NCBI GenBank assembly: GCA_021108335.1
Contig: JAIORC010000354.1
Span: 1-32,844 of the forward strand
Reading direction: 5' to 3'
Length of the DNA: 32,844 nucleotides
DNA from: Phycisphaerae bacterium
GTDB taxonomy: Bacteria > Planctomycetota > Phycisphaerae > SM23-33
Under the pieces are notes generated by a model. That model was not told where the DNA came from, ran no database searches, and saw only the letters and a list, made by a program, of their open reading frames with translations. Below are positions 4,508 to 29,592 of this stretch, piece after piece (position 1 is the stretch's first letter; every line of letters begins with the position of its first letter). The position numbers were made by a program, and so were the translations under genes.

Positions 4508-4562
4508 GTGTACCTTTCCTGTCTTTGTCATTCTGTTTAAAGGGAATCTGTCTGGACTTTTC

Positions 4563-7006: not shown

Positions 7007-7035
7007 CTTAAAAGATATTCAATTTTTCCTGTCAA
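7007..7035 (-). promoter_or_regulatory. Candidate promoter for the minus-strand PEP-CTERM unit
   Basis: On the minus strand TTGACA (7035-7030) is followed after 17 nt by TTTAAG (7012-7007). The -35 box overlaps the TGA stop codon of the regulator gene. The -10 box is only a 4/6 match, so this is tentative. A Shine-Dalgarno-led 7-codon frame (MVTRKVR, 7000-6977) follows directly. Confidence 0.35.
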
Positions 7036-8201
7036 GTAATCGCCATTTGTTTGGCCTTTTGGCCCACGTACCCGCCGCCGCTTGACTCGCGTACAACCAA
7101 TTTTGTCGGCAGTGCGATGTGCCGCGGCGTGTTTCGCTCGCCGGAAATTTTCTCCAGCAGCAGCTTCATTGCCATGCGACCCATTTCGTGGGTATTCCTG
7201 TCCACCGATGTCAGCGGGGAAACGAGATATTGTCCCATTTCATAGTTGTCATAACCTGCGACGGCTATCTCTTGCGGTATAGAAACACCCTTCGCCATCA
7301 AGGCGTTCATCACCATCTCGGCTATTCTGTCATTGATGGCGAAGATGGCGTCGGGCTTGTCAGGCAATTTCACAAGCTTATCAACAATGTCCGCTATTTC
7401 CCGGGGATCGTATGACTCGATGAACCTGACCAAATCACCCCGAGAAACACTGTCGTGAGCCGCCATCGCCTTGCGGTAACCGACAATACGATTCTCGACG
7501 TTCGAATCCATAGGCCCGGAGATCAGGGCGACTGACTTTCTGCCGCTTTCGAGCAGATGCTCGACAAGTTCCATGCTTCCCATCACGTCGTCGGAATAAA
7601 CGCAGTCCAGGCCGAAGCCGAGAACTGCGTCGGGTATGTTCAGGAAGTTTCTGTCGCAGAGAACGACCTCTACGCCCGCAGCCTGGAGGCGGCGGATACG
7701 CGAGATGTTTTCCTCGTAATACCCTTTGCTGATGGCTGCCGGTACGTAAATTACCCCGTCCACCTTCTTCTTGAAGAACTTCTCCAGATAAGAGTCGATT
7801 TTGGACAGGTCATCCTCGGTATTGCAGAATAGTACGTCATATCCAGCCTGGTGGGCTGCATCTTCGATGTTCCATACAATATCGCGGTCATACGGTGCCC
7901 CCGGATAGGCCGGAATAAGAACCGCAATGGTGGACGGCTTGGATTTGGTGCGGTCGGCAACAAATGTTCCAAGCCCTTGCTTACGATAGATAATTCCCCG
8001 GGTGGTAAGCTCACGGATGGCGCGATCGACGGTGGCATTGCTGATTGACAGTTTCGAGATAAGTTCACGCTGGCTGGGCAACCGCTGGCCCGGCTTGAGG
8101 TGGTTGCTGTGAACGTGCTCCTCGATTATCTCCATAAGCCGATAATGACGCGGCTTGGGGGCACATTCGTCAAGCTGCCTTTTTACTGCTTGAAAATCCA
8201 T
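7032..8201 (-). CDS. GntR-type regulator with LacI-like sugar-binding domain
   Basis: A transcription factor of 389 residues. The start is ATG at 8201 (MDFQAVKRQ), with GGGAGG 10 nt upstream; an in-frame TTG at 8219 would overlap that ribosome site. Residues about 18-85 are a GntR winged helix (LKPGQRLPSQRELISKLSIS, GIIYRKQGLGTFVAD). From about residue 90 follows a periplasmic-binding-protein-like effector domain (TIAVLIPAYPG, GYDNYEMGQYLVSPLTSVDR). This AraR-like build is typical of repressors released by a sugar. It is the first gene of the minus-strand cassette and faces the LacI gene of the mirrored cassette. The downstream PEP-CTERM, prepilin and lyase genes are the natural targets, and inverted repeats in front of it suggest self-control. 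Confidence 0.88.
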   Translation of the reverse strand: MDFQAVKRQLDECAPKPRHYRLMEIIEEHVHSNHLKPGQRLPSQRELISKLSISNATVDRAIRELTTRGIIYRKQGLGTFVADRTKSKPSTIAVLIPAYPGAPYDRDIVWNIEDAAHQAGYDVLFCNTEDDLSKIDSYLEKFFKKKVDGVIYVPAAISKGYYEENISRIRRLQAAGVEVVLCDRNFLNIPDAVLGFGLDCVYSDDVMGSMELVEHLLESGRKSVALISGPMDSNVENRIVGYRKAMAAHDSVSRGDLVRFIESYDPREIADIVDKLVKLPDKPDAIFAINDRIAEMVMNALMAKGVSIPQEIAVAGYDNYEMGQYLVSPLTSVDRNTHEMGRMAMKLLLEKISGERNTPRHIALPTKLVVRESSGGGYVGQKAKQMAIT

Positions 8202-8229
8202 GCTTGTTTGGCCTCCCAATTAAACGGGA

Positions 8230-8977: not shown

Positions 8978-10042
8978 ATGAGAGTTACACTCAAACATAT
9001 CGCAAAAGAGGCCGGTGTTGATGTTTCCACGGTTTCTCGCGTGCTCAACAAAAAAGGCCGCGAAACCCGAATCAGCCCTAAACGCGAAAGCCAGATTCTC
9101 GAAGCGGCGCGGCAATTGCGGTATATCCCCAACAGTTCAGCCCGGGCAGTCCGCACGGGCCGTTTCGACTGTGCCGCGCTGTTGTTGAGTACTCACCTCG
9201 CATGCAGCTACATGCCGTCTTTCCTTCTTGAGGGTATACACGACGAACTAGCCAAGCGGGACATGCATCTGACACTGGCCAAGCTACCTGATGAAAAGCT
9301 GTCCAGTGAGGGTTACGTTCCCAAAATATTGCGGTCTATGATGGCTGATGGCCTGCTGATCGATTACACGCACCAGCTTCCTGCCCAACTCGAAGATATC
9401 ATCAAACGCCGCAGTATCCCCGCGGTGTGGCTCAACACGAAGCACGAGATGGATTGCGTGTATCCAGACAATCTGGAGGCGGGTCGTCGGGCGACTCAAT
9501 ACCTGCTGAAGATGGGCCATCGTCGTATCGCTTATGCGGATTATTTTTTCGGATATGAAGATGTCGCCGCAGCCCACTACAGCGCGGTGGACCGCTGCAG
9601 GGGATACGAGCAGGCGATGCGTCAGGCCGGGCTGGAACCCCGGACGATTCGTGCGGACGCCGGACGCGTACCAGCCGGCCTGGAAGAAGTTGAGTTCACC
9701 AAACGCTGGATGTCCGAACCGAACCGGCCGACGGCGGTAATAGCTTACTGGATGACCATCGCCCTTCCGATACGTCAGGCTGCGCTTGAGATGGGGTTGA
9801 GCGTCCCGAAGAACCTGTCGATTCTAACTTTCGCAAGCGAGTCGTCCGGAAACGGTGTTTTGCTCGATTCCGGATTTAATATCACCGCAATGGTCGAACC
9901 TGAACAGGAAATGGGTCGGACCGCCGTGCAGATGCTCCTGGAAAAAATCGAGAAGCCATCCAATGCGTTGGCTTCAAAAGTGTTGAATTTCAAACTCGAA
10001 GAAGTCGGAAGCTGCTGCCCGCCGAGCGGCAAAGAACATTAA
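8978..10042 (+). CDS. LacI-family transcriptional regulator
   Basis: A 354-residue repressor. Residues 1-50 are a LacI helix-turn-helix (TLKHIAKEAGVDVSTVSRVL) with the hinge region at about 50-60. From about residue 65 a sugar-binding effector domain follows (FLLEGIHDELAKRDMHLTLA, VYPDNLEAGRRATQYLLKMG, HRRIAYADYFFGYED). The conserved C-terminal block is VEPEQEMGRTAVQMLLEKIE. GGAAAATGGAAA-like purines precede the ATG. It opens the plus-strand cassette with PEP-CTERM, prepilin, lyase-like and GH130 genes, so it probably controls them in response to a sugar derived from the target polysaccharide. Two operators in its own leader point to self-control. The ligand cannot be read from the sequence. 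Confidence 0.92.
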   Translation: MRVTLKHIAKEAGVDVSTVSRVLNKKGRETRISPKRESQILEAARQLRYIPNSSARAVRTGRFDCAALLLSTHLACSYMPSFLLEGIHDELAKRDMHLTLAKLPDEKLSSEGYVPKILRSMMADGLLIDYTHQLPAQLEDIIKRRSIPAVWLNTKHEMDCVYPDNLEAGRRATQYLLKMGHRRIAYADYFFGYEDVAAAHYSAVDRCRGYEQAMRQAGLEPRTIRADAGRVPAGLEEVEFTKRWMSEPNRPTAVIAYWMTIALPIRQAALEMGLSVPKNLSILTFASESSGNGVLLDSGFNITAMVEPEQEMGRTAVQMLLEKIEKPSNALASKVLNFKLEEVGSCCPPSGKEH

Positions 10043-11963: not shown

Positions 11964-14900
11964 ATGAAATATACCATAACGGTAACGGCTTTGTTATTCA
12001 CGATTACCATGCCTGTTTTTTCGGCTGATCCTGCGAAAAAGGATGTTGCGAAGACGGTCCGGCGGAAAACCGTCAATGAGGTATTCAACAGGCCTTTCGT
12101 TCGACACAATCGCAACTTAAAGTTTCAGCCCTACGAAACTCCGCATCGTTATCTGAACATGGGTAGCGGGTTTTTCATTTACGGTTATAACAGGGAATAC
12201 CGCACTTCAACGGCTGCCATGATCCTCGGATGTCTGAAATCTCCCGGGAAAGACTTGCGAGGGCGGCACAGCAATAGAAATGGATTTGGTCGCCACTCCT
12301 GGGGCGGGTTTGAAATGCAAAGCAACGAAAAAATGACCATCAACCTGAACTACAGGTGGAAGTTTTCGGAAGACACGCTTGAAATAACCAATGAGAAGGA
12401 TTGCCTTCGCGTCGTTCAGAAAACCCGCTTCCTCAAGACGACTTCTCTGCGTGCGATTGGAGCAATGATAAAGCTGCCGACAAAATACTGGGATGGCGGC
12501 AGATGGACAGTCGGCAACAAGTCTGGCACGTTCCATAAGGGACTCGATAAAAGCATTGTCCTTCCGTCGGCAAAAACGCTTGTGTTCAACCTTGCCGGCA
12601 GTGATTTCAGTATTGAAATAAACCTGCACGAGAAGGTTAAGGAGATTGTAATCAACAGGCATGATTTTGCATTGGGAAATTACGAGATATATATAGTCAG
12701 CGAGGGATCGCTGGCGAAAAAGCCAAGGGTTTTCAAAGCCGGCAGCGATTACAGTTTGTCCTACGACATAAAAACGGCTGGTAGATTCCCCGATCCGCTA
12801 ATTGATGAAAAGGGTTGGGAGACGCGGGGGCGTTCCTGGATATTGCGTAGACCTCTTAAAGAATTCGCCGCGGATACCAGATTTAACGATGAACGCGTAA
12901 AGAGGGAAATCGCATACCAGATTCTGGATAAGAATTCGGAATTCTATGGAATGTGCAATACGCCGTACCCGAAAGGGGTATCGGGACGGGCTGACCATTT
13001 CGATCGTCCGGTGTTGCGTACCCGGGACATTCTGAAGCAAATCTGCCCTGCCTACTGCAATCGAAAATCTAAATATTATCACAATAAGGAGATGGGCAAC
13101 CGTCTGTCTGCCTGCCTGGACTACCTTAGTGCGGCGATAAACAGGCAATCGGCACAATTCGGGGATATAAGACGAAGAGGATGGTCCAAGGCACCGTGTA
13201 CTCTCCGTAATTTGCCAATGGCACAGGCAATAGTCGCCCTCGCACGGCATCACGACGTGCCTGACAGGAAAATCGCGTATTGGGTAAGAAGCTATGAATA
13301 TCGCTGGAAAAATTCCGATTTACAGGATGCCCTTGTCGGAATCAAAAAAAAGGCTATCGGATTCAACGCCGTTACGAAAATATTCAACGCAGCCAGAGGC
13401 GCGAAATTCCTGGAAAAGAATAGCTTCATGCCGGAATTTGCCAAGGGAATGTCTGTCGCATTTGGTATAAACACGAATCCCGTATTTGGGGTGAAGTCCG
13501 ATTTCAGCCATCGTGAGCATCATCCGAATTTCTTCGATACGACATATTATCTCTATATGCTCAATTATATCTGTGACTATTACCGCTTGACCCGCGGCAC
13601 GGAATTTGAATTTCGAGGTAAAAACAAAAAAACACTTGAAGGTATTCTCGACGCGGCGATCTGGCTGCACGACAATGCCCTGGTTACGCCGATCACAAGC
13701 GACGCCAGGGCAAGGCTGCTCGGCGGACATCACTACAAACGCGCGTTCGAAATACTGAGAAACGAATATCCAGCCGCGATGACGGTTTATCACCAAATCA
13801 AGGTTCGCAATCACAAGACCGGAAAGAAGGCCGTCGCGAGTTCCAAACGCCGGCTACCGGCAGGTTTCAAGTGGTTTTATAATCCCGGGATGCTGGTCGC
13901 ACGCACCGACGATTATTATTGCGCCGTAGTGGCAAAGCCAAGAATTATCGCCATGTGCGTAAACTCATGGGGCTTCAACGCCAAAATGCCAATGGGCGGG
14001 TTCTATATGCGTACGATGGGCCAACCCAGAGAGTGCGTAGTGCCGACGGATAATGCGTTTTTCTCCGGCGTAACGCTTGTTGACGGCATGCAGCATAAAG
14101 CGGATGCGGATGACGAATTCATGAACAACGACGGTTCGCGATTCGTCGATTCGATCCAGTTGGGCAAAGACGCCGCGCTGTTCGGCATGGATGCCGTCGA
14201 GGCCACCAAAGCCGCCCCGAAGGATAAACTACACTTCCAGAAAACGTACTTCTTCCTCAAGGACAGAGTCATAACGATGCAGCATGTCCCCGCCCAGAAA
14301 ACAAAACGAAAAACCTGGGCATATCCATTTATTATGACCACCCCGCATAAGAAGAAAGTTTCTACTCCGCGAGGGAGTTTCGATGTCCTCCCGGACAACA
14401 AGAAACATAAAATTACGAAACTGGGATTCCCGAAATGGATCATGCTGGAAACCATGGGAATCGTTCCGATTCAAACGTCAACGCCGATTGAGTTTTGTGA
14501 TCTCGGTGCCAAGGGATACAGGCTGGAAAGGGTCGGCAAGGGGTGGACTCCCAAAAAAGACATGAAACAATTAGCCACGGTGAGAATCCCTCTCGACCCG
14601 GCCAAAGGCGGGCAGTATGTGATTGCTTATCTTCCGACAGCCGACGTCGAGGCTGTAAAAAAGGAGGCCCTTGACGGTAAAAAGGTCAAGATTCTATCAA
14701 GCGGGCTTGTCCACGCGTTGAAGGCTGGGAACTGCCTGATGGTGGCAAATTATCAGTCGGACAAACAGGTAGTCGTAGACAGCGTCAAAATCAAAGGAAG
14801 AGCATTTCTGATAGTAAAAAAATCCCCCACTCAATTGAGTGTTGTCGTCAGTGCCTGGGAAAATGTGAAAATCGAAATCCCGGCTTCGGAATTTGCGCCG

Positions 14901-15098
14901 AAGGTTTCCATCCTCGAAGGCTCAGGAAAAGCTGAGCACCGTAATGGAATCCTTACAATCACAACCAAACCGCAAGTTCGTTATTACCAGGACAGAAAAC
15001 CCCTGGAAAATTTCAAGTGGAGAAATAAGAGCTTCCCCGTGGAAGATATAATAGATAAACGAAAAGTACCCCTTCAAATTATGTTAGAAAGGAAATAA
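11964..15098 (+). CDS. Large secreted protein, possibly a polysaccharide lyase
   Basis: A 1044-residue protein with signal peptide [20 protein letters not shown] (cut near Ala21). I do not recognise a named family. The N-terminal 270 residues look beta-rich. Residues about 290-610 are helix-rich with Trp/Tyr/His clusters ([20 protein letters not shown]), as in the alpha-toroid of lyases. The remainder is beta-rich, with [33 protein letters not shown] and [15 protein letters not shown]. An alpha-toroid followed by beta-sandwich layers would fit PL8-like or heparinase-like lyases, and the position mirrors the lyase of the other cassette. The catalytic assignment is inference. A ribosome site GGAAAGG precedes the ATG. 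The 153-bp gap before it shows no clear terminator or promoter. The stop lies 2 nt from an alternative start of the next gene, so the two are co-transcribed. Confidence 0.7.
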
Positions 15099-15145
15099 TT
15101 ATGCAAAATATTTTATTGAAAGAAACAAACAAGGAGAGCATTCAT

Positions 15146-16156
15146 ATGTCAGGCAATAAGCCGCAAACTATCATAGGGCCGAATCTGCCGAACATTCCAT
15201 GGGAGGACAAGCCCACCGGTTGTGACGAAGTACTCTGGCGGTATAGCCGCAACCCGGTTATCCCACGCGATTTGATTCCGTGTTCCAACAGCATTTTCAA
15301 CAGTGCGGTGGTTCCCTTCGAAGGCAAGTTCGCCGGCGTATTCCGCGTGGACGACAAATGCCGGCACATGAGGCTTCACAAAGGAACGAGCGAAGATGGC
15401 GTAAACTGGCGGATTGATAACGATCCCATCGAGTTCATCTGCGATGATCCGGAAATCGCACCTTTCATATGTGGCTACGATCCCCGCGTCTGCTGGATTG
15501 AAGATCGGTATTATGTCACCTGGTGCAACGCTTATCACGGCTATCCGACAATCGGCGTGGCATATACTCACGATTTTAAAGAATTTCATCAGCTTGAAAA
15601 TGCTTTTTTGCCATTCAACCGTAACGGCGTAATGTTCCCGCGTAAGATCAACGACAAGTTCGCCATGCTGTCCCGTCCCAGCGACAACGGCCATACACCC
15701 TTCGGCGATATTTTTTACAGTGAAAGCCCGAACATGTGCCACTGGGGCAAACATCGTTTTGCGATGGGTACTGTGAACAATCATAGCTGGCAGACTACCA
15801 AGATAGGTGCCGGGCCGATTCCCATCGAAACCACGGAAGGTTGGCTGCTGATTTACCACGGAGTGCTGACGTCATGTAATGGATTCGTTTACAGCGCCGG
15901 TGCGGCCCTGCTGGATATAGATAAACCGTGGAAAGTAATCGCCCGAACAGAACCCTACATTCTCAATCCACGCGAGATGTACGAATGCGTCGGCGACGTT
16001 CCGAACGTAGCCTTTCCGTGCGCCGCTCTGGCCGATGCAGCCACCGGTCGCATCGCAATGTACTACGGAGCCGCCGACACGGTTGTCGCCATGGCCTTTA
16101 CGCAGGTCGATGAATTGATTACCTTTATCAAGGCAAACACAATTACCCATGGTTGA
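15146..16156 (+). CDS. GH130-like glycoside phosphorylase or hydrolase
   Basis: A five-bladed beta-propeller enzyme of about 336 residues, related to GH130 beta-mannoside phosphorylases. Visible family features are [26 protein letters not shown], the [17 protein letters not shown] block (Asp112 is the candidate proton donor), [20 protein letters not shown] and the closing [12 protein letters not shown]. There is no signal peptide, so it acts in the cytoplasm on imported oligosaccharides, by phosphorolysis if it is a phosphorylase. The start at 15146 has AAGGAG 9 nt upstream. An ATG at 15101, also with a purine-rich site, would add 15 residues ([15 protein letters not shown]) and remains possible. 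It follows the large lyase-like gene closely. The natural substrate, mannoside or other, cannot be fixed from sequence alone. Confidence 0.82.
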
Positions 16157-18251: not shown

Positions 18252-19001
18252 CTATTTTTGCAGATTTTTCATATCAACGAGAATTCCGTCAGCCGTTTCA
18301 TGCAATTGTTTCACCAGCAATGGAATCTCCTCTTTCGTAATCATATCTGTCGCAACAGCAAGAGCAGCCATCGGTGGCGAGCCTATTGCCACCGCCAGTG
18401 AGGTATTGTCGTTCAAACCATAACCCTGCGTGCGAACCTCTAAAAGCTGTTGTAACAACGCGTTAACATTGATTTCTCCGCCCATGTCTTTTTCCTGTTC
18501 CTGATAAAGCGATTTTACGTATTCCTTTGTACGTTGGGCCAACATGATCATCCCAATACTTGATCGTTCGGCTGGGTAAAGGTCACTGCCAACAATCGCG
18601 GCTTCCATCGATTTTTCCGGCCCCCCATGATACAGGTAGCACACCTGTCTGCGCCAGAGCACTCCCAGAGCCACTATCATGCCTGTTTTCTCAATCAATG
18701 TACGAATGCGGGGCAAAGCAGAGGTGAGCAAATGCGATCCGCGAAGACTCATGGCACTCAGCACGTGAATACCGGGACCGACAATATATTTTCGATCTGA
18801 TGTTCGCTCCGCCAATCCCAAATAAGCCAATGTCCCCAGAAGGCGATTAACGTGTGTGTGTTCTCGTTTGAGTTCGCGCGCCATCTCGCGACTTCCTATC
18901 GGCCGTCCCGCCGATACGAGTTGCAACAGGCACTCAGTTCCGTATTGCAAGCTTTGATTGGGTTGTGCCGGAGCACGCGTGGTATATGTTTGTTCATCCA
19001 T
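18252..19001 (-). CDS. IclR-family transcriptional regulator
   Basis: A 249-residue regulator. Residues about 17-75 form the IclR winged helix (GTECLLQLVSAGRPIGSREM, VNRLLGTLAYLGLAER). The effector domain follows (LPRIRTLIEKTGMIVALGVL, PAERSSIGMIMLAQRT, NVNALLQQLLEVRTQGYGLN). The ATG at 19001 follows AGGACAGACAC. It heads the minus-strand unit with the deleted and the intact FAD oxidoreductase, which are its likely targets. IclR proteins often sense small acids or sugar-acid breakdown products, which would suit uronate metabolism, but no ligand can be named. A palindrome at 19071-19083 is a candidate binding site. Confidence 0.88.
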   Translation of the reverse strand: MDEQTYTTRAPAQPNQSLQYGTECLLQLVSAGRPIGSREMARELKREHTHVNRLLGTLAYLGLAERTSDRKYIVGPGIHVLSAMSLRGSHLLTSALPRIRTLIEKTGMIVALGVLWRRQVCYLYHGGPEKSMEAAIVGSDLYPAERSSIGMIMLAQRTKEYVKSLYQEQEKDMGGEINVNALLQQLLEVRTQGYGLNDNTSLAVAIGSPPMAALAVATDMITKEEIPLLVKQLHETADGILVDMKNLQK

Positions 19002-19526: not shown

Positions 19527-20693
19527 ATGTCATATAGGAAAAAGCGGATACTGTTCGTGGACGACGAATTCCACTTCCTGGAAGGGCTGCGGCGTAGGCT
19601 TCGCCCATATCGTCGGGAGTGGGAGATAGTATTTGTCCAAAACGGCAAAGAAGCCCTGGGAGAAATGCAAAAGGCGGCGTTCGATGCCGTTGTCCTGGAC
19701 CTCTATATGCCCGGGATGAACGGTTTTGATCTGCTGGGAGCGATACTGGAAGACGAGCGGACAAAAGATATTCCCGTTATCGTTTTGACGGGTGGGAAAG
19801 ATCAAGATCTCAAACGGCGTGCTCTGGATCTGGGGGCGACCGACCTTCTGGGCAAACCTGTTGAGTTGGAGGATTTGTTAGCCCGGCTTCGCAGCGTGCT
19901 TCGTTTGAAAGCATACCAGGACGAAATCAAGGCCATGAATGCGGAACTGGAGCAGAGAATCGAAGAGCACACCCGGTACCTCATGCAGGCCCGAGTTATC
20001 CAGTCCTTGTCCCTGCAGGAAGAATTGCCTGTAGACGATCATATCGTGTTTACCACACACTATATTCCACACGATCTTATTGGTGGAGATTACTACGCCA
20101 TCGCGCAACTGGATATTGGCTGCTATGGTTTTTTTCTGGCTGACATTACCGGTCACGGCATCCCGGCGGCCCTGTATACCATGCACCTCCGTTCGCTCTG
20201 GAATCAGAATCGCCACTTGATCGTAAGCCCCTCTGTTTTTGCCGAGGTGATGAACGACAGCCTGTGTCGTCTCATCGAGGGAGGCGGACATTTCGCCGCC
20301 GCCATTTGTGGAATGTTTGATCTGAGGCAGGAAACGCTGACGCTCTGCAGCGCCGGCAATCCGCCGCCGCTTGTAATCCACAGCAACGACGAGTTCGAAC
20401 ACGTAAACTGCGCCGGATTGCCTCTGGGGTGTATTGAGGGCACAAGCTACGAAGAAACCGTGGTGGAGACGCGTGCCGGAGACTGTGTACTCCTGTTCAC
20501 GGATGGGGCTGTGGAAATCCGCCATGCTGCCGGAGAGTATCTCAACGCGGACGGGCTTGTGGAGATACTCCGGGAGCTGGGCTACCCTCGTTCGGATGCC
20601 GGCTTCCAGGACATCGAGGATCAGTTGCTCAAATATTCCAACCAGATAGGCTTCGACGACGACCTGACATTCATTGAAGCGCGTTTGACATAG
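19527..20693 (+). CDS. Response regulator with PP2C (RsbU/SpoIIE-like) phosphatase output
   Basis: A 388-residue protein. Residues 1-125 are a receiver domain: acidic pair Asp12-Asp13, phosphoacceptor Asp58 (VVLDLYMPGMNG), LTGG, and Lys110 (LLGKPVE). A coiled-coil linker (about 130-155) leads to a PP2C-type Ser/Thr phosphatase at about 160-388. Metal-binding acidic residues are all present: Asp188 (IGGDYY), Asp206 (ADITGHGIPAAL), Asp326 (LFTDGAVE) and Asp377-379 (DDDLTF). Such proteins usually dephosphorylate an anti-sigma antagonist in partner-switching systems, under control of a histidine kinase. No STAS antagonist or anti-sigma kinase gene is in the window, so the target is elsewhere or different. 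It is first in the signalling operon. Confidence 0.92.
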   Translation: MSYRKKRILFVDDEFHFLEGLRRRLRPYRREWEIVFVQNGKEALGEMQKAAFDAVVLDLYMPGMNGFDLLGAILEDERTKDIPVIVLTGGKDQDLKRRALDLGATDLLGKPVELEDLLARLRSVLRLKAYQDEIKAMNAELEQRIEEHTRYLMQARVIQSLSLQEELPVDDHIVFTTHYIPHDLIGGDYYAIAQLDIGCYGFFLADITGHGIPAALYTMHLRSLWNQNRHLIVSPSVFAEVMNDSLCRLIEGGGHFAAAICGMFDLRQETLTLCSAGNPPPLVIHSNDEFEHVNCAGLPLGCIEGTSYEETVVETRAGDCVLLFTDGAVEIRHAAGEYLNADGLVEILRELGYPRSDAGFQDIEDQLLKYSNQIGFDDDLTFIEARLT

Positions 20694-20732
20694 ACCCCTG
20701 AAAATAAATTGGCACCAAACAAGGAGAACGTC

Positions 20733-21527
20733 ATGGAATGGATAAGACATCGTTGGATACGTATTCCGCTCATTCTGCTAATGGCTGTTTTTGTATTTAC
20801 GGGCGGCTGCGGGCAGACGAAAAAGCAACCGAAGAAAGAACTGCTCATCTATTGCGGTATTACAATGATTAAGCCGATGACCGACATCGCGGAAATCATT
20901 GAAGAACAGGAAAATTGCAAAATTATTATTATAAAAGGCGGTTCCGGTAATCTTCTCAAGTCGATCAAAACCAACAAGGTTGGCGATTTGTATTTGCCGG
21001 GGTCGGATTTCTACATCAAAACCTGTTTGCGGGAAGGCCTTGTTACCGAAACGGTTCATGTTGGACACAACAAGGCTGCGATGATGGTGCAGAAGGGCAA
21101 TCCGAAGGGGATTACCGCTGACCTCAATAATCTCGCGTCGAAGGAATACTACGTCGTGATTTGCAATCCAAACAGCGGCAGTATCGGCAGGGAGACAAAA
21201 AAGATTCTTGATAAAAAAGGCATTTTTCAGAAAGTCCAGGATAACGCCCGCGACATAACAACAGACTCAAAAGACCTGAGCCTTGCACTGATCAACAAGC
21301 AGGCCGATATTGTCATTAACTGGTATGCGACATCCACCTGGCCGGCAAACGAACCTTACGTCGAAGTGCTGCCGATTGACGAGAAATATGCCGCAAAGAA
21401 GAAGCTGGTTATCGGTCTGCTCAAGACGGCGGAGCATCCTGAAATCGCCCGCAAGTTCATGGAATACGCCGCTTCTGGCAAAGGCCATGAATTGTTCAGA
21501 AAATACGGTTTATACGACGTAAAGTAA
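20733..21527 (+). CDS. Periplasmic substrate-binding lipoprotein (ModA/PstS-like fold)
   Basis: A 264-residue binding protein. The start is ATG at 20733 with AAGGAG 6 nt upstream; a TTG at 20709 is in frame but lies before the ribosome site. The signal IPLILLMAVFVFTGGC places the lipid on Cys26. The mature part starts LLIYCGITMIKPM and contains GGSGNLLKSI, GDLYLPGSDFYI, NPNSGSIGRETKKIL and AASGKGHELFRKYGLYDV, typical of class II binding proteins for oxyanions. No permease or ATPase gene accompanies it. It lies 20 nt before the histidine kinase gene, so it more likely presents its ligand to the kinase sensor domain than feeds a transporter. The ligand might be molybdate, phosphate or another anion; not determined. 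Confidence 0.85.
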   Translation: MEWIRHRWIRIPLILLMAVFVFTGGCGQTKKQPKKELLIYCGITMIKPMTDIAEIIEEQENCKIIIIKGGSGNLLKSIKTNKVGDLYLPGSDFYIKTCLREGLVTETVHVGHNKAAMMVQKGNPKGITADLNNLASKEYYVVICNPNSGSIGRETKKILDKKGIFQKVQDNARDITTDSKDLSLALINKQADIVINWYATSTWPANEPYVEVLPIDEKYAAKKKLVIGLLKTAEHPEIARKFMEYAASGKGHELFRKYGLYDVK

Positions 21528-21547
21528 CCCTGAAGGAGTAGCCTGCA

Positions 21548-24118
21548 ATGAATGGTATTCTGAAAGAGCCTATACAGCGAAAGGTATTGTTTCTGGCGAT
21601 TGTCTTCGTCGCTACATTTGTCGTCTTGCTCACGTCGGAGGGATACATGAATCGCCTTTCGCGGGATCGCGACTCGGCAATTCACAATCAACAGGCCCGT
21701 CGCGCCATCGGGAAAGTCATCCTCAGAAAACTGATCCTGATAGAATTTAATCTTGGCAGACTTGCAACGACAAATGACCGCAGGGACGTCGACGCTTTCG
21801 ACAAAAAGATATCGTCTTCCATCGGGGACATCGAATCGGCGCTGAGTGTCCTGCGAAACGGCGGGGACTACGAAGACGTTTTGCCCGCCAATTTTGCCGA
21901 CGTGAACGAAATTCGGGAGCATATGTCGTTCGTTGTGGACAAAAACAGTGGATACGTTATCGAGGTCATCGAGTTGACCCCCAGAATTCTCGATATCAAG
22001 CAGGCCTCCGCTGACCTTCTTAGGGCTGTCAACGAGAAGCTCATCGCCTCAAACAACAGCGAAAAGATCGCCTCTCAGAAACAAATCGACCTGCTCCAGA
22101 AACAGGCCCATGCGTTCCTCCTGCGTTCCCGTGAATTCGCGAACAGGATATTCTATGACACCAATCTGAAAATCCAGCATCTTGAACTGGAGCAAGCCGA
22201 ATCAATTCGTCACTTTGCCTTGGCCCGTTACATCATTATCGCAATTTTCGGACTTGGAATGATTTGCATATGTGTCCTCACAATTCGTCAGACAGGAAGT
22301 ATTATCGAAGAACGTCAGTGTGCATGGGAAGAAGTCGCCATGCACCGGAATCACCTTACGCAACTTGTGGAGGAGCGTACTGCAGAACTGACAAGGACCA
22401 ACGAGGAACTCAGTGCCGAGATTGACGAGCGCGAACGGATGGAGGAAGCCTTAAGGACAGAGAGAGACAAGTTACTGGTTCTTATGGCCGGTTTGGCTGA
22501 TATGGGAATCGGCATTGACATTGTGGGAACGGATCACAAGATATTGTTTCAAAATCGAACACGGGAGGAGAGATTCGGCGATCTCGTGGGAAAGGCGTGC
22601 TACGAGGGATACATGGGACGCGACAAGCCTTGCGATGCCTGTCCCATGTTACAGGCCGTAACCAGCGGCAATACCGAAAGTACGGAAGTTGCGACTCCCG
22701 ACGGCAGGCAGTATGAAGTAGTCGCCGCTCCCCTGATCAACGCCGAAGGAACCATTGACAGTGTTGTGGAAGTCGTCAGCGATATTACAAATCGCAGACG
22801 CGCGGATGAGCAACTGCGATTTGCCAAGGAAGCTAGCGAAAAAACCGGCTTTGAATTGGCCCAGACAAATGAGCAGTTGGAACGGTTATTCACTGCCATT
22901 CCGTCCATCCTGATAGGCCTGTCTGCCGACCATAAGGTTATCCGATGGAATAAAGAGGCTGAGGACATATTTCAAATCCCTCAAAACCAGGCAATGGGGC
23001 AACAGTTCGGGTACTGCGGGGGGTTCCGCGAATTGGAGAAGATCAACGACGGGCTGTCCAGGTGCGTAGAGAACCGCCAGGTTGTTACCCTGGAGGAAGT
23101 CCGATTCCAGTGTTCCGACGGGAGTGAGGCTTTTCTCGGATTGACGTTGAATCCGTTCGGGGCGGACGACGATGGAGACGGGGACGGCGGCGTCCTGATT
23201 CTCGGCTCGGACCTTACTGAACGGAGGATACTCCAAAGTCAACTTACCCAGGCACAGAAGCTTGAATCAATCGGTCAACTCGCAGCCGGTATCGCCCACG
23301 AAATCAACACGCCGACACAATACGTCGGAGACAATACGCGGTTCCTCCAGGACAGCGTTACGGATGTATTCGACCTGCTGGAGCAATACGACCGCCTGTT
23401 CCTGGCGGCTAAAGAAGATAGTGTCAATCACGAAATAATAACGGAAACGGAAGCCGTCGCGCAGAAAGCCGATGTAGAATATCTCCGCGAAGAAATTCCC
23501 AACGCGATCCGGCAATCACTGGAGGGGTTGTCTCGCGTATCCTCGATTGTTGCCGCCATGAAGAACTTCTCGCATATCCATGGGGAAGAAAAGACTTCCG
23601 TCGATCTTAACCAGGCTATTGAGAATACCGTTACGATTGCCAGAAACGAGTGGAAATACGTCGCCGAAGTTAACATGAACTTTGCCCCGGACCTTCCGCT
23701 GGTGTCTTGCCTGCAAGACGAACTCAACCAGGTCTTCATGAACCTGATCATCAACGCCGCCCACGCCATCGGCGATACGACGGATGAAGCCAACGGCGAA
23801 AAGGGAACCATTACGATTGACACGCGTTACGACGACGGCTGGGTGGAAGTGCGCGTCAGCGATACCGGGTCGGGGATTCCGGAGGAAATACGGAACAAAA
23901 TTTTCGACCCGTTCTTCACCACCAAGGAAGTGGGTAAAGGAACGGGGCAGGGATTGGCTATTTCGCATTCCATCGTGGAGAAAAAGCACAGTGGCAAAAT
24001 CAGCTTTGAAACGGAATCCGGCAAAGGCACGACGTTTATTGTCCGCCTGCCCCGGCATAACGAGTCGCAGGAGAATGAACCCGAACCAACGAAGACGGAA
24101 GAAATGTCCGTGGCGTAA
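21548..24118 (+). CDS. Membrane sensor histidine kinase with two PAS domains
   Basis: An 856-residue kinase. TM1 is at about 14-32 and TM2 at about 228-247 (YIIIAIFGLGMICICVLTI). They enclose a mostly helical periplasmic sensor region of about 195 residues. A coiled coil (about 255-305) follows. PAS1 (about 310-415) contains three cysteines, Cys351, Cys362 and Cys365, in CYEGYMGRDKPCDACP. PAS2 is at about 440-565. The H-box is IGQLAAGIAHEINTPTQYVG with His584 as phosphoacceptor. The ATP-binding part has NLIINAAHAI (N box), DTGSGIP (G1) and GKGTGQGLAIS (G2). There is no fused receiver, so the phosphate probably goes to the REC proteins of the same operon. GGAG lies 9 nt before the ATG. Confidence 0.93.
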   Translation: MNGILKEPIQRKVLFLAIVFVATFVVLLTSEGYMNRLSRDRDSAIHNQQARRAIGKVILRKLILIEFNLGRLATTNDRRDVDAFDKKISSSIGDIESALSVLRNGGDYEDVLPANFADVNEIREHMSFVVDKNSGYVIEVIELTPRILDIKQASADLLRAVNEKLIASNNSEKIASQKQIDLLQKQAHAFLLRSREFANRIFYDTNLKIQHLELEQAESIRHFALARYIIIAIFGLGMICICVLTIRQTGSIIEERQCAWEEVAMHRNHLTQLVEERTAELTRTNEELSAEIDERERMEEALRTERDKLLVLMAGLADMGIGIDIVGTDHKILFQNRTREERFGDLVGKACYEGYMGRDKPCDACPMLQAVTSGNTESTEVATPDGRQYEVVAAPLINAEGTIDSVVEVVSDITNRRRADEQLRFAKEASEKTGFELAQTNEQLERLFTAIPSILIGLSADHKVIRWNKEAEDIFQIPQNQAMGQQFGYCGGFRELEKINDGLSRCVENRQVVTLEEVRFQCSDGSEAFLGLTLNPFGADDDGDGDGGVLILGSDLTERRILQSQLTQAQKLESIGQLAAGIAHEINTPTQYVGDNTRFLQDSVTDVFDLLEQYDRLFLAAKEDSVNHEIITETEAVAQKADVEYLREEIPNAIRQSLEGLSRVSSIVAAMKNFSHIHGEEKTSVDLNQAIENTVTIARNEWKYVAEVNMNFAPDLPLVSCLQDELNQVFMNLIINAAHAIGDTTDEANGEKGTITIDTRYDDGWVEVRVSDTGSGIPEEIRNKIFDPFFTTKEVGKGTGQGLAISHSIVEKKHSGKISFETESGKGTTFIVRLPRHNESQENEPEPTKTEEMSVA

Positions 24119-24142
24119 CCCTCAAGACAGGGAGAACAAAAA

Positions 24143-24610
24143 ATGATAGTGAAAAAACCCGTTACCGCGATCATCAAGGAAGGTCACGGCGTCCTCTCCG
24201 TAGATGCCGACGCCACGGTCTTGATGGCATGCAAAAAAATGCGATATCACAACGTCGGCAGCCTGGTTGTGATAAGCGAGAAGGGTGCGCCGTCGGGCAT
24301 TGTTACCGAGCGCGACCTGCTCAACAAAGTGCTCGCCGAGGAGAAAGACCCCAGAGACATGATCGTGAGGGACGTAATGACCGACGGGGTGGTTTCCATA
24401 GACTCGCTGGTTTCCATTCCCGAGGCACAGATAGTTATGGCCAGGCATAGCATCCGCCATCTGCCGATTATTGAAGACGGGCTTCTGCTGGGAATGATAT
24501 CCATACGGGATATTTTTGCGCATCAGCTTGCCGCGGTGAAATCGCTGTTGAGGCAGCAGGCAAACCCGCCGGAAAACCTGGACGAGGAGTTTCCTGACTT
24601 GCCGGAGTAA
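24143..24610 (+). CDS. CBS-domain pair protein
   Basis: A 155-residue soluble protein made of two CBS motifs. The first is at about 8-68 (GVLSVDADATVLMACKKMRY, NVGSLVVISEKGAPSGIVTE, ending RDLL). The second is at about 75-130 (VRDVMTDGVVSIDSLVSIPE, HSIRHLPIIEDG, GMISIRDIF). The last 25 residues form a short charged tail. CBS pairs commonly bind adenine nucleotides or S-adenosylmethionine and report energy state. It begins 24 nt after the kinase gene, with GGGAG before the start. Its place between kinase and response regulators suggests it adds a nucleotide input to the same pathway, although a partner is not shown by sequence. Confidence 0.92.
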   Translation: MIVKKPVTAIIKEGHGVLSVDADATVLMACKKMRYHNVGSLVVISEKGAPSGIVTERDLLNKVLAEEKDPRDMIVRDVMTDGVVSIDSLVSIPEAQIVMARHSIRHLPIIEDGLLLGMISIRDIFAHQLAAVKSLLRQQANPPENLDEEFPDLPE

Positions 24611-24666
24611 TACCAGATTCAGTCCGGGAAAAGCCGGCAACGCTCCGGCTGTGGAGAATGTGATCA

Positions 24667-25863
24667 ATGCAAAACAGGATACGGATAATTTTTGTCGATG
24701 ACGAGCGTAACATCCTGCAGGGCCTGCGGCGTATGTTAAGGCCCATGCGGGACAAATGGGACCTGGCATTCGCAAACGGCGGCAACGAGGCCCTGGAACA
24801 CCTCGCGGCGGAACCTTGCGACGTTATCATCTCCGACATACGCATGCCTCAAATGACCGGTGTGGAATTGCTGGAGAACGTTCGCCGCCGACATCCGCAC
24901 ATGATCCGCTTTGTCCTGTCCGGCCAGGCAGCCAGGGAAACCATCATCGACGCGGTCGGCCCAACGCATCAATACCTCGCCAAGCCCTGCGATGCCGAAA
25001 CGCTGAAAGCCGCCATCGGCAGGCTGGAAATGCTCCGGGATTTGCTGCCGGTCGAAAAACTCAGGGAGGCAATCTCGGCTTTGGAGTCTCTGCCGTCCAT
25101 GCCAAGTCTGTATGACGAACTGACGCGGCAACTCCGCGGGCCGGAGGTATCGGTCAAATCTGTCTGCCGGATCATATCGGCGGACATCGGGATGAGCGGC
25201 AAACTCCTGCAACTGGTTGGTTCGGGATTTTTCGGCCCGCCGCGGCACGTATCCACACCGGCTGAGGCGGCCAAGGTGCTGGGCATAGATATCATCAAAT
25301 CGCTGGCCCTTTCGCTCAATGTCCTGACGCCGTTCGACCCCGTCAAAATGGAGGGTTTTGCGATGGGGACATTGTGGAAGCACAGCACCACCGTAGCCGA
25401 CCACGCCAGGAAAATCGCCGAGTCCCAAGGCGCGGACAAAAAAACCGCCGACGCAGCCTTCATAGCGGGAATGCTCCACGACGTCGGGAAAATCGTACTG
25501 GCGGAACAATTGGCGGAGGATTATCGCTCGGCGGTCGCTTTGGCCCGGGCCGAGGGCGTTGACTCGTTGGAAGCCGAGCGGAGAATCTTCGGAGCCACCC
25601 ACGCGCAGGTTGGGGCGTATCTGCTTGGAATATGGGGGCTTGAAGATTCTACCGTCGAGGCGACAGCGTATCATCACTGTCCGTCGGCCGCCTCAAACTT
25701 CACAGACTTCACCGCACTGACAGCCGTCCACGTCGCCTACTGCCTGGACGAAGGCCGTGCCGTCGATACGGAATACCTCGCCAGGCTCGGCCTGGCCGAT
25801 AGCATGACCAAATGGCGGGATATCCGCCCGAAAGAAATACACAAGGAGCCAGCCAATGTCTGA
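24667..25863 (+). CDS. Response regulator with HDOD output domain
   Basis: A 398-residue protein. The receiver (1-120) has Asp11-Asp12, phosphoacceptor Asp57 (VIISDIRMPQMTGVELL) and Lys106 (YLAKPC). Residues about 138-335 are an HDOD domain (LPSMPSLYDELTRQL, AKVLGIDIIKSLALSL, FAMGTLWKHS). Unlike many HDOD proteins it keeps an HD pair, His271-Asp272, in MLHDVGKIVLAEQL, so hydrolase activity is not excluded. HDOD proteins usually act in signalling linked to cyclic di-GMP or cell behaviour. It overlaps the next gene by 8 nt (ATGTCTGA), implying translational coupling. Its receiver resembles that of the PP2C protein (LQGLRRMLRPMRDKWDLAF versus LEGLRRRLRPYRREWEIVF), so the two may share the same kinase. 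Confidence 0.92.
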   Translation: MQNRIRIIFVDDERNILQGLRRMLRPMRDKWDLAFANGGNEALEHLAAEPCDVIISDIRMPQMTGVELLENVRRRHPHMIRFVLSGQAARETIIDAVGPTHQYLAKPCDAETLKAAIGRLEMLRDLLPVEKLREAISALESLPSMPSLYDELTRQLRGPEVSVKSVCRIISADIGMSGKLLQLVGSGFFGPPRHVSTPAEAAKVLGIDIIKSLALSLNVLTPFDPVKMEGFAMGTLWKHSTTVADHARKIAESQGADKKTADAAFIAGMLHDVGKIVLAEQLAEDYRSAVALARAEGVDSLEAERRIFGATHAQVGAYLLGIWGLEDSTVEATAYHHCPSAASNFTDFTALTAVHVAYCLDEGRAVDTEYLARLGLADSMTKWRDIRPKEIHKEPANV

Positions 25864-26998
25864 GAGAATACTATTTGTGGACGATGACGCGAATCTTCTG
25901 GCGGGGTGCAGACGCACGCTGCGAGGCCTGTTTCACGTGGAAACCGCCGAGGGCGGCCAGGCCGGACTGGAACTGCTGACCAGCCAGGAACCCTTCGCCG
26001 TCATCCTGGCGGATATGCGTATGCCCGGTATGGACGGCGTGCAGTTCCTTTCAAAGGCTGCGCAAATTGCTCCCGACAGCGTCCGCATGATGCTCACGGG
26101 CAACGCCGACCAGGCCACAGCCATCGATGCCGTCAACGAAGGACATATCTTCCGGTTCCTCAACAAACCCTGCCCGAAAGAAACGCTCATCAAATCCATC
26201 GAAGCCGCCGTCGAACAACACAACCTCATCATCGCCGAGAAACAACTCCTGGAAGAGACTCTCAACGGCAGCGTCAAGGTTATGGTCGATATCCTTTCTC
26301 TGGTAAGCCCGATGGCGTTTGGCCGGGCCAGCCGGGTAAGGCGATACGTCCGGCATATCGCCGAGGCGCTTTCGTTGCCGAATGTATGGCAGATCGAGGT
26401 CGCGGCGATGCTTTCGCAGATCGGCTGCGTCTCCATGCCGGGCGACATTCTGGAAAAAGTATATGCCGATCAGGAGTTAACCGCGGAAGAACAAAAACTC
26501 TTCGCCTCGCATCCCGACGTCGGCGGACGGCTGATTGTCAACATCCCGCGGCTGAAGGAAGCCGCCCATATGATCGCCCGCCAGCAGGAGCCATTCTCGT
26601 GGGACAGCTCAGACCAGCAGCCGCACGAGCGCGATGCCGTCGCGGTCGGCGGGCACGTTTTGAAAATAGCCCTCGATTTCGACCAGCTTCTTGCCCGGGG
26701 AGTGGAACCGAAACTGGCCATCGCCAAACTTCGCGAACACACGGAAGTCTACGACACGGATATCGTCAATGCCCTGGCGAATCTGAATGTTAGCCCGGAC
26801 AAAACTCGCTTGCTTGCTCTGAAGGTCGAGGAACTCAATATTCACATGATCCTGGAACAGGATGTCCGTGCCGGCAACGGCAGTTTGCTGGTTACGAAAG
26901 GCCAGGAAGTAACCATCGCCATCCTGGAACACCTCCGCCGCTGGGCGCAGGGCATTGGCGTACAAGAGCCGATACGCGTGTTGGCTCCGAATTATTAG
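25856..26998 (+). CDS. Response regulator with degenerate HD-GYP domain
   Basis: A 380-residue protein. The receiver (1-120) has Asp9-Asp11, phosphoacceptor Asp53 (VILADMRMPGMDGVQFL) and Lys104 (FLNKPCP). Residues about 135-300 align with HD-GYP phosphodiesterases (AFGRASRVRRYVRHIAEALS, ELTAEEQKLFASHPDVGGRL). The metal-binding HD of the family is replaced: where LHDIGK is expected it has LSQIGC (Ser187, Gln188), and the GYP loop is replaced by EPFSWDSSDQQPHERDA. It therefore should not cleave cyclic di-GMP, and may bind a ligand or a protein partner instead. A C-terminal extension (about 315-380) contains EQDVRAGNGSLLVTKGQEVT. It is the last gene of the signalling operon. Confidence 0.88.
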   Translation: MSERILFVDDDANLLAGCRRTLRGLFHVETAEGGQAGLELLTSQEPFAVILADMRMPGMDGVQFLSKAAQIAPDSVRMMLTGNADQATAIDAVNEGHIFRFLNKPCPKETLIKSIEAAVEQHNLIIAEKQLLEETLNGSVKVMVDILSLVSPMAFGRASRVRRYVRHIAEALSLPNVWQIEVAAMLSQIGCVSMPGDILEKVYADQELTAEEQKLFASHPDVGGRLIVNIPRLKEAAHMIARQQEPFSWDSSDQQPHERDAVAVGGHVLKIALDFDQLLARGVEPKLAIAKLREHTEVYDTDIVNALANLNVSPDKTRLLALKVEELNIHMILEQDVRAGNGSLLVTKGQEVTIAILEHLRRWAQGIGVQEPIRVLAPNY

Positions 26999-27162: not shown

Positions 27163-27303
27163 GCCGGATTTTGTCTCTTCATCAATCTGGTTTTCCAGTT
27201 TCCCATCGCAGACAGAATTTTCGGCAGAGACAGCCAGATTTTGTTTCTTCATCAATCCGAATTTTCCGGTTTTTCATCGCAGATGAGTTTTCGGCAGGCA
27301 CAG
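27163..27303. repeat. Imperfect tandem repeat, two 70-bp units
   Basis: Unit 1 (27163-27232) and unit 2 (27233-27303) share GATTTTGT-TCTTCATCAATC, TTTTCC-GTTT, CATCGCAGA and TTTTCGGCAG with a few substitutions and two 1-nt gaps. They lie in the 464-bp convergent gap between the signalling operon and the minus-strand operon. No known repeat family was recognised. The rest of the gap holds no convincing gene; a 16-codon frame at 27360-27410 has a ribosome-like site but no other support. Confidence 0.7.
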
Positions 27304-27462
27304 GTGTCACCATGCCACCCGCTGGTGTTTTGACAGTCTATCGGCAGAAAGGATTTGCCATGAGAAAGCCAACCATGCAAACCATCGCCGCCGGTGAAGC
27401 TTTCGTGTGATATGGTGCTATAAAATCCGCCCTACCGTTGTCGGCGACGACAGCAATAAGAA

Positions 27463-29592
27463 TCACCAACCGCCGGGGGCTTTGGATTTTTCTTTATCCT
27501 TTTTCCACTTCGGCAGATTTTTGTTCTTGTCGTCCTTCTTGCCGGACTTCTTGCCCTTGCCAGCCTTGCCTTTAACTGGCTTTTTCTTAGCTCGCTTCGG
27601 CTTGGGCATTGTGATTTTGCTGTGGGCGGTAACCAGGCCGGCCTTGGCAAATGTCTCGCCTGGCTCAGCCGTGAGTATGAACTTCACAAAATCCATTGTC
27701 GCTTCGTCGGCATTGGGCGAGACGTACATAACCACTTGCCGGGCCAATGAATACTTGCCAACCAATAGATTTTTCGGCGTCGGTAGAGCAGCCTTGCCAG
27801 CCGGGCCGATAGCCAGTACCTTTACGCCGGCCTGGGCAGTCTTCTTTGCCAGGTCGTTGACGTCGATAACGCCAATGCCGCCGGGGTTGCTGGCCACGAA
27901 ACCAATCACCGAATCTGCCGTCTTGCGATACTGCACGCCGCGGCATTTGTTGGCCTGCAGAATCTCGCGATGAAAATACTTAACCGCCGCATCCTTGGTC
28001 GGGTCCGGCGAATAGCGAACGATCTGGCTATTTTTGTCATTCTTGTTATTTTTGGTATTCTTGCCACCCGCCGTCTTGCCACCTTTGGCCGTTTTGCCGC
28101 CGGCCGTCTTGCCGGTCTGCCCCGCCCCAGCCACGTCAGCCCAGCTTTTCGCCTTGCCCCTGAAAACCTCCACAACCTGCTCAGCCGTGATGGATTTCAG
28201 CGGATTCTTCGGATTAACAATCACCGCCACGCCGCGGGCACCAAGAACATGCCGCACCGGCTTAGCCGCCGCCAGCTTCTCGCGGTAGGCGTCGCGGGTC
28301 TTTTCGCTCATAGCCCCGTCCAGCACAAGCAACTGCGGGCTGTTAGCCGAAACCTTCTCGCCAGCCGCCGCCTTCGCCCCAGCCGTAGCAAACCGCCCAA
28401 CCACCGCCCGCTCATCCCCAGCCGAATACTTCATCTGAATCACAGCCTCAGCCATCACATAATCCACCGCCAAACCATCCAGCAGTTTCTCACACCCCTT
28501 AGCCCCAACAACCCGAACCAGCGGCCCCTTGCCGGCCTTCATCTCCCGAAGGCGTTTTTTGCCGACTTCCTGCTTCTCAGCCCACGGCGTAATCAGACCA
28601 TGCTTAGCCGCAATCTTCGCACCCTCTTCACTAACGCAAAACTCGCAAAACTTCTTAGCCAGCGGCGGAGCCTTCGGGTGCAGATAAAGAATCAGCGGCT
28701 CAGCCAGCGGATAATCCTCCTGGATCGCCGGCTCCAACTTCGGCATAACAAACGGCCCCTTGTCCGTCTTGCCAATAGCCAGAACTTTAACATTCTTCAG
28801 CCCCTTAATCTTCCCACCACTATAAAGAAAAAATCCGATACCTTTGGGGTCTCCCCGAACTTTTCTGACAATTTCCTCAGCATTCTTGCATGGGACAAGA
28901 TCATCGCGATAGGAATGGCGGCGCATTTGCCTTGAAGTTTCCGACTCGCGCTGCCAATAGGTCATGCATTCCTGCTGAATAAAGTCTCTGCACCACGTTT
29001 TATCCAAAGGGCCATAGCATTGAATCGCAGCACCTGTACCACCAACGTCGGTCCACTTTTTCCCCTTGCCGTCCGGCCTGAATATGGTGCAGATTCCAAC
29101 ATAATCCAAATGGTCTATTGGATTGGAAGAGTTGACAATCACCACCACTTGTTTCTGGCCCAGGAGAAATTGCTGAGGTTGTACCGTCCCTGCGGGGAAA
29201 GTCCGACGTATGCATTGCTTGCCATGCCGCGTTGGTCTGGCATCATGAGCCAGAATAGCAAATGGATCGTCCCTGTCGCAGAAACGGCCAACACTGCCGT
29301 AATCATCGAAATTAACGTCCAGCTTCTCATTGTCAGAGAAAGCTTCCGCAAGTTCCTTAACGATACCAACAAAACGTTTACGATATTGGCCTCGGATTAC
29401 CACAGCCCCAGGCTTGGCAGGATTGGTCAATTTTGGGCCAGAACGAGAGAACGGCTTGTCTGGACTAACCCAGCCAACACACTTCTGCGCAATAGCATAC
29501 TCAGGATATACTGCCGTCTGTAACAAGACGACACCAAGTACCGTCATAAACAGGGAAGCTCTGTAAATATGGGGGCTTTTTACTCTTCTCAT
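27463..29592 (-). CDS. Exported protein with two PstS-like binding domains
   Basis: A 709-residue protein with a signal peptide (ASLFMTVLGVVLLQTAVYPE, cut after AIAQ or nearby). Two class II binding-protein domains are in tandem, about 40-345 and 355-670. Each carries the family block VVVIVNSSNP/VAVIVNPKNPLKSITAEQV, then W-x-DV-G, and a conserved segment before the end (PLILYLHPKAPPLAKKF, RQVVMYVSPNADEATMDF). In the second domain a Lys/Gly/Asn-rich insertion, about residues 489-520, sits after SWADVAGAG. The tail is strongly Lys-rich (about 675-709), which may bind nucleic acid, cell wall or polyanions. No ABC transporter genes are near. It is the last gene of the minus-strand operon. Ligand unknown; phosphate or another anion is the family expectation. 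Confidence 0.82.
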   Translation of the reverse strand: MRRVKSPHIYRASLFMTVLGVVLLQTAVYPEYAIAQKCVGWVSPDKPFSRSGPKLTNPAKPGAVVIRGQYRKRFVGIVKELAEAFSDNEKLDVNFDDYGSVGRFCDRDDPFAILAHDARPTRHGKQCIRRTFPAGTVQPQQFLLGQKQVVVIVNSSNPIDHLDYVGICTIFRPDGKGKKWTDVGGTGAAIQCYGPLDKTWCRDFIQQECMTYWQRESETSRQMRRHSYRDDLVPCKNAEEIVRKVRGDPKGIGFFLYSGGKIKGLKNVKVLAIGKTDKGPFVMPKLEPAIQEDYPLAEPLILYLHPKAPPLAKKFCEFCVSEEGAKIAAKHGLITPWAEKQEVGKKRLREMKAGKGPLVRVVGAKGCEKLLDGLAVDYVMAEAVIQMKYSAGDERAVVGRFATAGAKAAAGEKVSANSPQLLVLDGAMSEKTRDAYREKLAAAKPVRHVLGARGVAVIVNPKNPLKSITAEQVVEVFRGKAKSWADVAGAGQTGKTAGGKTAKGGKTAGGKNTKNNKNDKNSQIVRYSPDPTKDAAVKYFHREILQANKCRGVQYRKTADSVIGFVASNPGGIGVIDVNDLAKKTAQAGVKVLAIGPAGKAALPTPKNLLVGKYSLARQVVMYVSPNADEATMDFVKFILTAEPGETFAKAGLVTAHSKITMPKPKRAKKKPVKGKAGKGKKSGKKDDKNKNLPKWKKDKEKSKAPGGW

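Follow-up and report, generated by a model that had tools for sequence, protein, structure and literature searches.

The closest described system to the locus analysed here is NosP-NosK-NosR, encoded by nosRPK of Burkholderia. The auxiliary sensor of that system, NosP, is a FIST protein that binds heme and senses NO; its kinase, NosK, contains HEINN and is devoid of a membrane sensor, and its regulator, NosR, is of the degenerate HD-GYP type (PMC12570481). In Shewanella, the kinase HnoK branches to HnoB, HnoC and HnoD, the last of these being a degenerate HD-GYP protein that acts by protein binding (PMC6335343, PMC8846402). Two REC-HDOD proteins have been described as well: DVU0330 of Desulfovibrio, whose activity on bis-pNPP is weak and depends on Mn and which does not act on c-di-GMP, and GsmR of Xanthomonas, which does not contain the active-site His (PMC4114195). 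The text of PMC4114195 gives no multi-output context for either protein. In the literature that we searched, mostly without subscription papers, there is no account of the kinase-HDOD-degenerate HD-GYP core considered below or of its PP2C variant; no system joining HDOD with PP2C outputs came to light there, nor did experimental work on a member of the module.

The locus lies in a 32,844-nucleotide stretch of a Phycisphaerae contig, referred to as the window. As a first-pass annotation of this DNA had proposed, six collinear genes run in one direction with short gaps (19527-26998, + strand; Table 1), and Pfam assigns the claimed domains to each of them, including a kinase without a fused receiver. 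The binding lipoprotein is indeed encoded directly before the kinase, with no transporter genes beside it. Gaps within the set measure 39 (counted from the likely start of the lipoprotein gene), 20, 24, 56 and -8 bp, the last being an 8-bp overlap of the REC-degenerate HD-GYP gene with the REC-HDOD gene before it. For the lipoprotein, the ATG at 20733 is preceded by the Shine-Dalgarno sequence AAGGAG and is a likelier start than the TTG at 20709.

Table 1. Genes of the six-gene module in the window
Feature	Position	Strand	Domain evidence
REC-PP2C (SpoIIE/RsbU-type phosphatase) response regulator	19527..20693	+	Pfam PF00072 + PF07228
Solute-binding lipoprotein (SBP_bac_11, ModA-like)	20733..21527 (probable start ATG 20733)	+	PF13531, E 7.7e-52
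Membrane histidine kinase, two PAS, without fused receiver	21548..24118	+	Pfam
Stand-alone paired CBS protein	24143..24610	+	PF00571, two stretches
REC-HDOD response regulator	24667..25863	+	PF08668, E 6.5e-50
REC-degenerate HD-GYP response regulator (HD_5/HD-GYP), conserved C-terminal extension	25856..26998	+	PF13487

Because a divergent IclR-type regulator (18252-19001) lies upstream across a 525-bp gap and a convergent PstS-like gene (27463-29592, - strand) lies downstream, the six-gene cluster forms a separate unit. Promoter and terminator scans of the region returned matches at chance level and were uninformative. The gap 3' of the module contains two imperfect direct copies of a ~65-bp sequence (27177-27305; GATTTTGTCTCTTCATCAATCTGG..., GATTTTGTTTCTTCATCAATCCG...). 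The convergent gene encodes a 709-residue protein with two PstS/PBP-like regions and a Lys-rich tail, which scores 125 bits against TIGR02136 (cut-off 206.6); several relatives from the class (L090, L091 and L096) likewise have solute-binding proteins in tandem copies. Elsewhere the contig carries carbohydrate-use genes (11964-16156, +; 8978-10042, +; 7032-8219, -; 2549-4633, -), among them a GH130 phosphorylase adjoining a 1044-residue protein without a Pfam match, LacI- and GntR-type sugar regulators, and a heparinase II/III-like protein. The genome is a draft, 91% complete in 409 contigs, and absences from it are correspondingly soft.

Much of this gene set recurs far beyond the window. In 79 loci retrieved solely through similarity to the kinase, drawn from the best 80 of 404 candidates and hence biased to close kinases, REC-HDOD follows the kinase in 69 and a degenerate REC-HD-GYP is also present in 53; several of the loci without the full core stop at a contig edge. 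These loci come from Desulfobacterota, Nitrospirota, Acidobacteriota, Chloroflexota, Planctomycetota, Armatimonadota and other phyla, and since the core order recurs across phyla, the genes are clustered more than chance would have it. The degenerate HD-GYP protein is detected at E < 1e-40 in 28 of the 397 genomes of the window's class, and when class loci were fetched with this protein alone, REC-HDOD lay upstream of it in 23 of 26, a few genomes duplicating loci of the kinase-fetched set. About one-third of the class loci also contain a canonical REC-HD-GYP, usually between the kinase and REC-HDOD. The nearest relative, G008 from the same family, has the order lipoprotein–kinase–REC-HD-GYP–CBS–REC-HDOD–REC-degenerate-HD-GYP, which is the gene set of the window save for the swapped third output; in another member of the family (G023; L139:1396-3584), two degenerate REC-HD-GYP genes stand in tandem at the module end. 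Checked against these loci, the expectation of a conserved six-gene order holds for the core, which recurs; the exact order of the window was found in no second genome among the module loci compared. The earlier remark that the unit was not recognised as a described system therefore needs correction: the kinase–REC-HDOD–degenerate HD-GYP core is widespread, which rules out a unique system, and among described systems NosK-NosR comes nearest to it. By these comparisons, it is only the gene combination that is lineage-specific and not the core.

The feature that sets the window apart from G008 is the REC-PP2C gene at the operon head; the window is without the canonical REC-HD-GYP of G008, and no full-length orthologue of that protein was found in the draft assembly. 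Across its receiver and coiled coil (residues 1-157), REC-PP2C shares 65% identity with the REC-HD-GYP of G008; beyond residue 157 the two no longer match. The PP2C domain scores 123 bits against PF07228 (cut-off 25), and its acidic motifs GGDYY, ADITGHG, FTDG and FDDD are present, with the metal-binding acidic residues kept. It is the sole REC-PP2C among the eight SpoIIE domains of the genome, and a set of viral contigs scanned with it gave no match. In a receiver tree, REC-PP2C nests among canonical REC-HD-GYP receivers (support 98/88). As read from these alignments, the third output of the window is thus a swap of canonical HD-GYP for PP2C on the same receiver.

A comparable arrangement is seen in modules from two Desulfobacterales (L037:3367-4509 and L041:10740-11885), in which a terminal REC-PP2C replaces the degenerate HD-GYP regulator. 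Their receivers fall inside the degenerate HD-GYP receivers (100/100), in a different clade from that of the window, and the PP2C domains of the two groups are only 25% identical; we consequently reject a common origin of the two kinds of REC-PP2C. The receiver tree forces at least two origins of module REC-PP2C, and the sequences point to two independent output swaps, one in the window and one in Desulfobacterales. In a more general form, the kinase would keep a fixed, co-inherited set of receivers while output domains are exchanged in evolution: one receiver bears a c-di-GMP-type HD-GYP in most relatives and a Ser/Thr phosphatase in the window, and another has gained an unrelated PP2C in Desulfobacterales. 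A single sensory pathway would then have been rewired from second-messenger output to protein dephosphorylation at least twice with the phosphotransfer wiring unchanged; we consider this generalization an even bet.

The same receivers bear on whether one kinase feeds all three regulators. The module receivers that were sampled, 62 in all, group in a single clade (100/98) that excludes 23 further receivers encoded in the window genome. Compared pairwise, the alpha-1 contact helices of the three operon receivers are identical at 6, 7 and 9 of 14 positions, whereas the other receiver pairs from that genome average 2.6 and never exceed 6. The branching from one kinase suggested by the first-pass annotation is accordingly well supported by inference from sequence, through conserved gene order, a single receiver clade and shared alpha-1 contact residues. 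The receiver similarity may instead stem from duplication of a common receiver. It is also conceivable that the kinase feeds one or two of the three receivers only, with REC-PP2C answering another kinase and recruited by position. REC-PP2C does sit first, upstream of the lipoprotein and outside the usual kinase/REC-HDOD interval, which is where the homologous receiver is found in G008; its receiver nevertheless falls within the module clade, with the common alpha-1 pattern intact, and we regard separate feeding as improbable.

On the kinase side, two PAS domains are followed by a DHp domain with the sequence HEINTP and a HATPase domain; conservation of the DHp helix exceeds 80% in a set of 85 module kinases, and the HExxT phosphatase motif is present. 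PAS1 contains a cysteine motif, CYEGYMGRDKPCDACP, which is kept in G008 and could allow redox or metal sensing; by the pattern used it occurs in 4 of the 85 module kinases, and we rejected it as a trait of the module. The extracytoplasmic sensor spans about residues 30-225, with hydrophobic segments near residues 8 and 222, and is modelled as a helical bundle (pLDDT 79, built on two sequences). A fold search with this two-sequence model gave no match at E < 0.001, on which ground a TorS-like sensor was rejected; the best match of sensor type, 4k0d, is a periplasmic kinase sensor with an E value not below 0.001.

The distribution of this sensor links it to the lipoprotein. Among the 397 class genomes, a matching sensor occurs in the window genome and G008 only, and a phylum sample of 392 yielded no further genome; it is also found in L009, a Phycisphaerales contig. 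In all three cases the lipoprotein gene is directly upstream of the matching kinase, the G008 orthologue being 82% identical and next to its kinase, and the confinement of lipoprotein and sensor to the same three genomes fits the expectation for a co-sensor pair. Because the lipoprotein co-occurs only with this sensor, a role as co-sensor of the kinase is plausible and, on three genomes, the best reading. Alternatively, the lipoprotein could share the operon simply as a nutrient-binding orphan or a surplus transporter part, leaving the kinase to detect its signal by itself with the helical domain or the PAS domains. Such a protein would suit the closeness to molybdate-binding ModA (57.2 bits against TIGR01256, below the cut-off of 62.5), the potential of the PAS1 motif C-x(n)-CxxCP to sense redox state or metal, and the absence of a lipoprotein partner from most module kinases. 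Against it stand the exclusive pairing with this sensor type, directly upstream in three of three cases, and the draft genome, in which no ModB permease scores above the TIGR02141 cut-off; the latter also led us to reject the lipoprotein as part of a molybdate transporter. We judge an orphan protein unlikely and retain the co-sensor as the preferred reading.

The two regulators of the core differ in what remains of their active sites. Loss of HD catalytic residues is often given as typical for HDOD domains. The window REC-HDOD (PF08668, 169.8 bits against a cut-off of 22.9) departs from this, retaining H239, H271-D272, H312 and H336-H337, each present in more than 90% of 71 relatives. A plainly non-catalytic HDOD is thus not supported, and, because these residues are retained, the protein does not look obviously non-catalytic. 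The last protein, modelled with a pLDDT of 88, has MLSQIG in place of the HD site and so does not have the intact HD and GYP motifs of an HD-GYP c-di-GMP phosphodiesterase. It is degenerate, as had been claimed, and the whole family is likewise: the HD position is occupied by S in 50 and by Q in 45 of 63 relatives. As the HD site is lost across the family, this regulator should, by analogy with HnoD (PMC6335343), work by binding. The window genome encodes three GGDEF proteins, and for that reason c-di-GMP is probably made in this organism. Among module loci, the CBS protein is conserved only in G008.

Where the function of a SpoIIE-type PP2C domain is known, its substrate is a STAS antagonist. 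No partner-switching antagonist had been noticed nearby, and this is borne out on the module contig, which has neither a STAS nor an RsbW-like gene; the locus is thus not one in which a STAS antagonist and an RsbW-type kinase are encoded together. Elsewhere the genome contains ten STAS matches and RsbW-like kinases, which makes sigma-factor partner switching by the PP2C protein in trans possible. The phosphatase might alternatively have nothing to do with partner switching and act on other proteins phosphorylated on Ser/Thr, such as those modified by Hanks-type kinases or the two regulators encoded nearby. Consistent with that alternative are the lack of STAS and RsbW genes on the contig and the pairing of at least two of the other SpoIIE genes with RsbW-like genes (contigs C29 and C104, one also with STAS); the known functions of SpoIIE-type domains and the existence in this genome of STAS proteins without an adjacent phosphatase speak against it, and we think it rather unlikely.

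Domains, motifs, gene order, conservation and the replacement of canonical HD-GYP by PP2C behind the same receiver, all read from sequence, can be assembled into a two-component system that has several outputs and an extracytoplasmic co-sensor, a model to which we give a probability of about 0.55 as a whole. The lipoprotein, with its ModA-like fold, would bind a small solute and dock on the helical extracytoplasmic sensor of the kinase, thereby shifting its kinase/phosphatase balance; the kinase would then phosphorylate or dephosphorylate all three co-encoded receivers. Downstream, the degenerate HD-GYP protein would act through binding without catalysis, the HDOD protein through binding or as a weak metal-dependent phosphohydrolase, and the PP2C protein by removing phosphate from Ser or Thr of a partner, for which a STAS antagonist with its gene elsewhere is the likeliest candidate. 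An adenine-nucleotide or energy input may come from the CBS pair. Of these steps, we infer the lipoprotein-kinase docking, the phosphotransfer and the PP2C target.

More interesting than the list of genes, in our view, is that output domains are exchanged while the set of receivers is conserved. The core with HDOD and degenerate HD-GYP outputs is found in many phyla, and for neither output is there a general mechanism. The two natural swaps provide a clean comparison, in which the same kinase and receiver family is joined to different effectors, and they render two questions testable: whether a receiver stays specific for its kinase when its output domain is replaced, and whether a second-messenger output and a partner-switching output can stand in for each other behind a single signal.

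Set against known systems, the module resembles several in part. As in TorT-TorS and LevQRST, a binding protein would regulate a membrane kinase; TorS, however, is a hybrid kinase and the window kinase is not, scoring 79.8 against the TorS model, far below the cut-off of 676.5. REC-PP2C shares PP2C catalytic motifs and receiver control with RsbU/SpoIIE phosphatases, but no antagonist or anti-sigma gene lies alongside. The window REC-HDOD resembles DVU0330 in keeping the HD residues and differs from GsmR, in which the active-site His is missing. The nearest network analogue is that of HnoK, with one kinase and three regulators, one of them a degenerate HD-GYP protein; there, however, an EAL phosphodiesterase and a transcription factor make up the remaining outputs, and H-NOX provides the input. 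Like NosP-NosK-NosR, the module has an auxiliary sensor protein next to a kinase that carries the HExxN/T phosphatase motif, and it includes a REC-degenerate HD-GYP regulator. No FIST protein is encoded in the operon, in which the adjacent partner of the kinase is the SBP_bac_11 protein, and the HDOD, PP2C and CBS partners of the window have no counterparts reported for nosRPK (PMC12570481). The last protein has the NosR trait of a degenerate HD-GYP site behind a receiver, with SQ at the HD position, and matches the NosR model NF053512 over two stretches (236.3 bits, E 6.5e-70); since this score is below the cut-off of 400, its sequence identifies it as a relative of NosR and not a member of that family.
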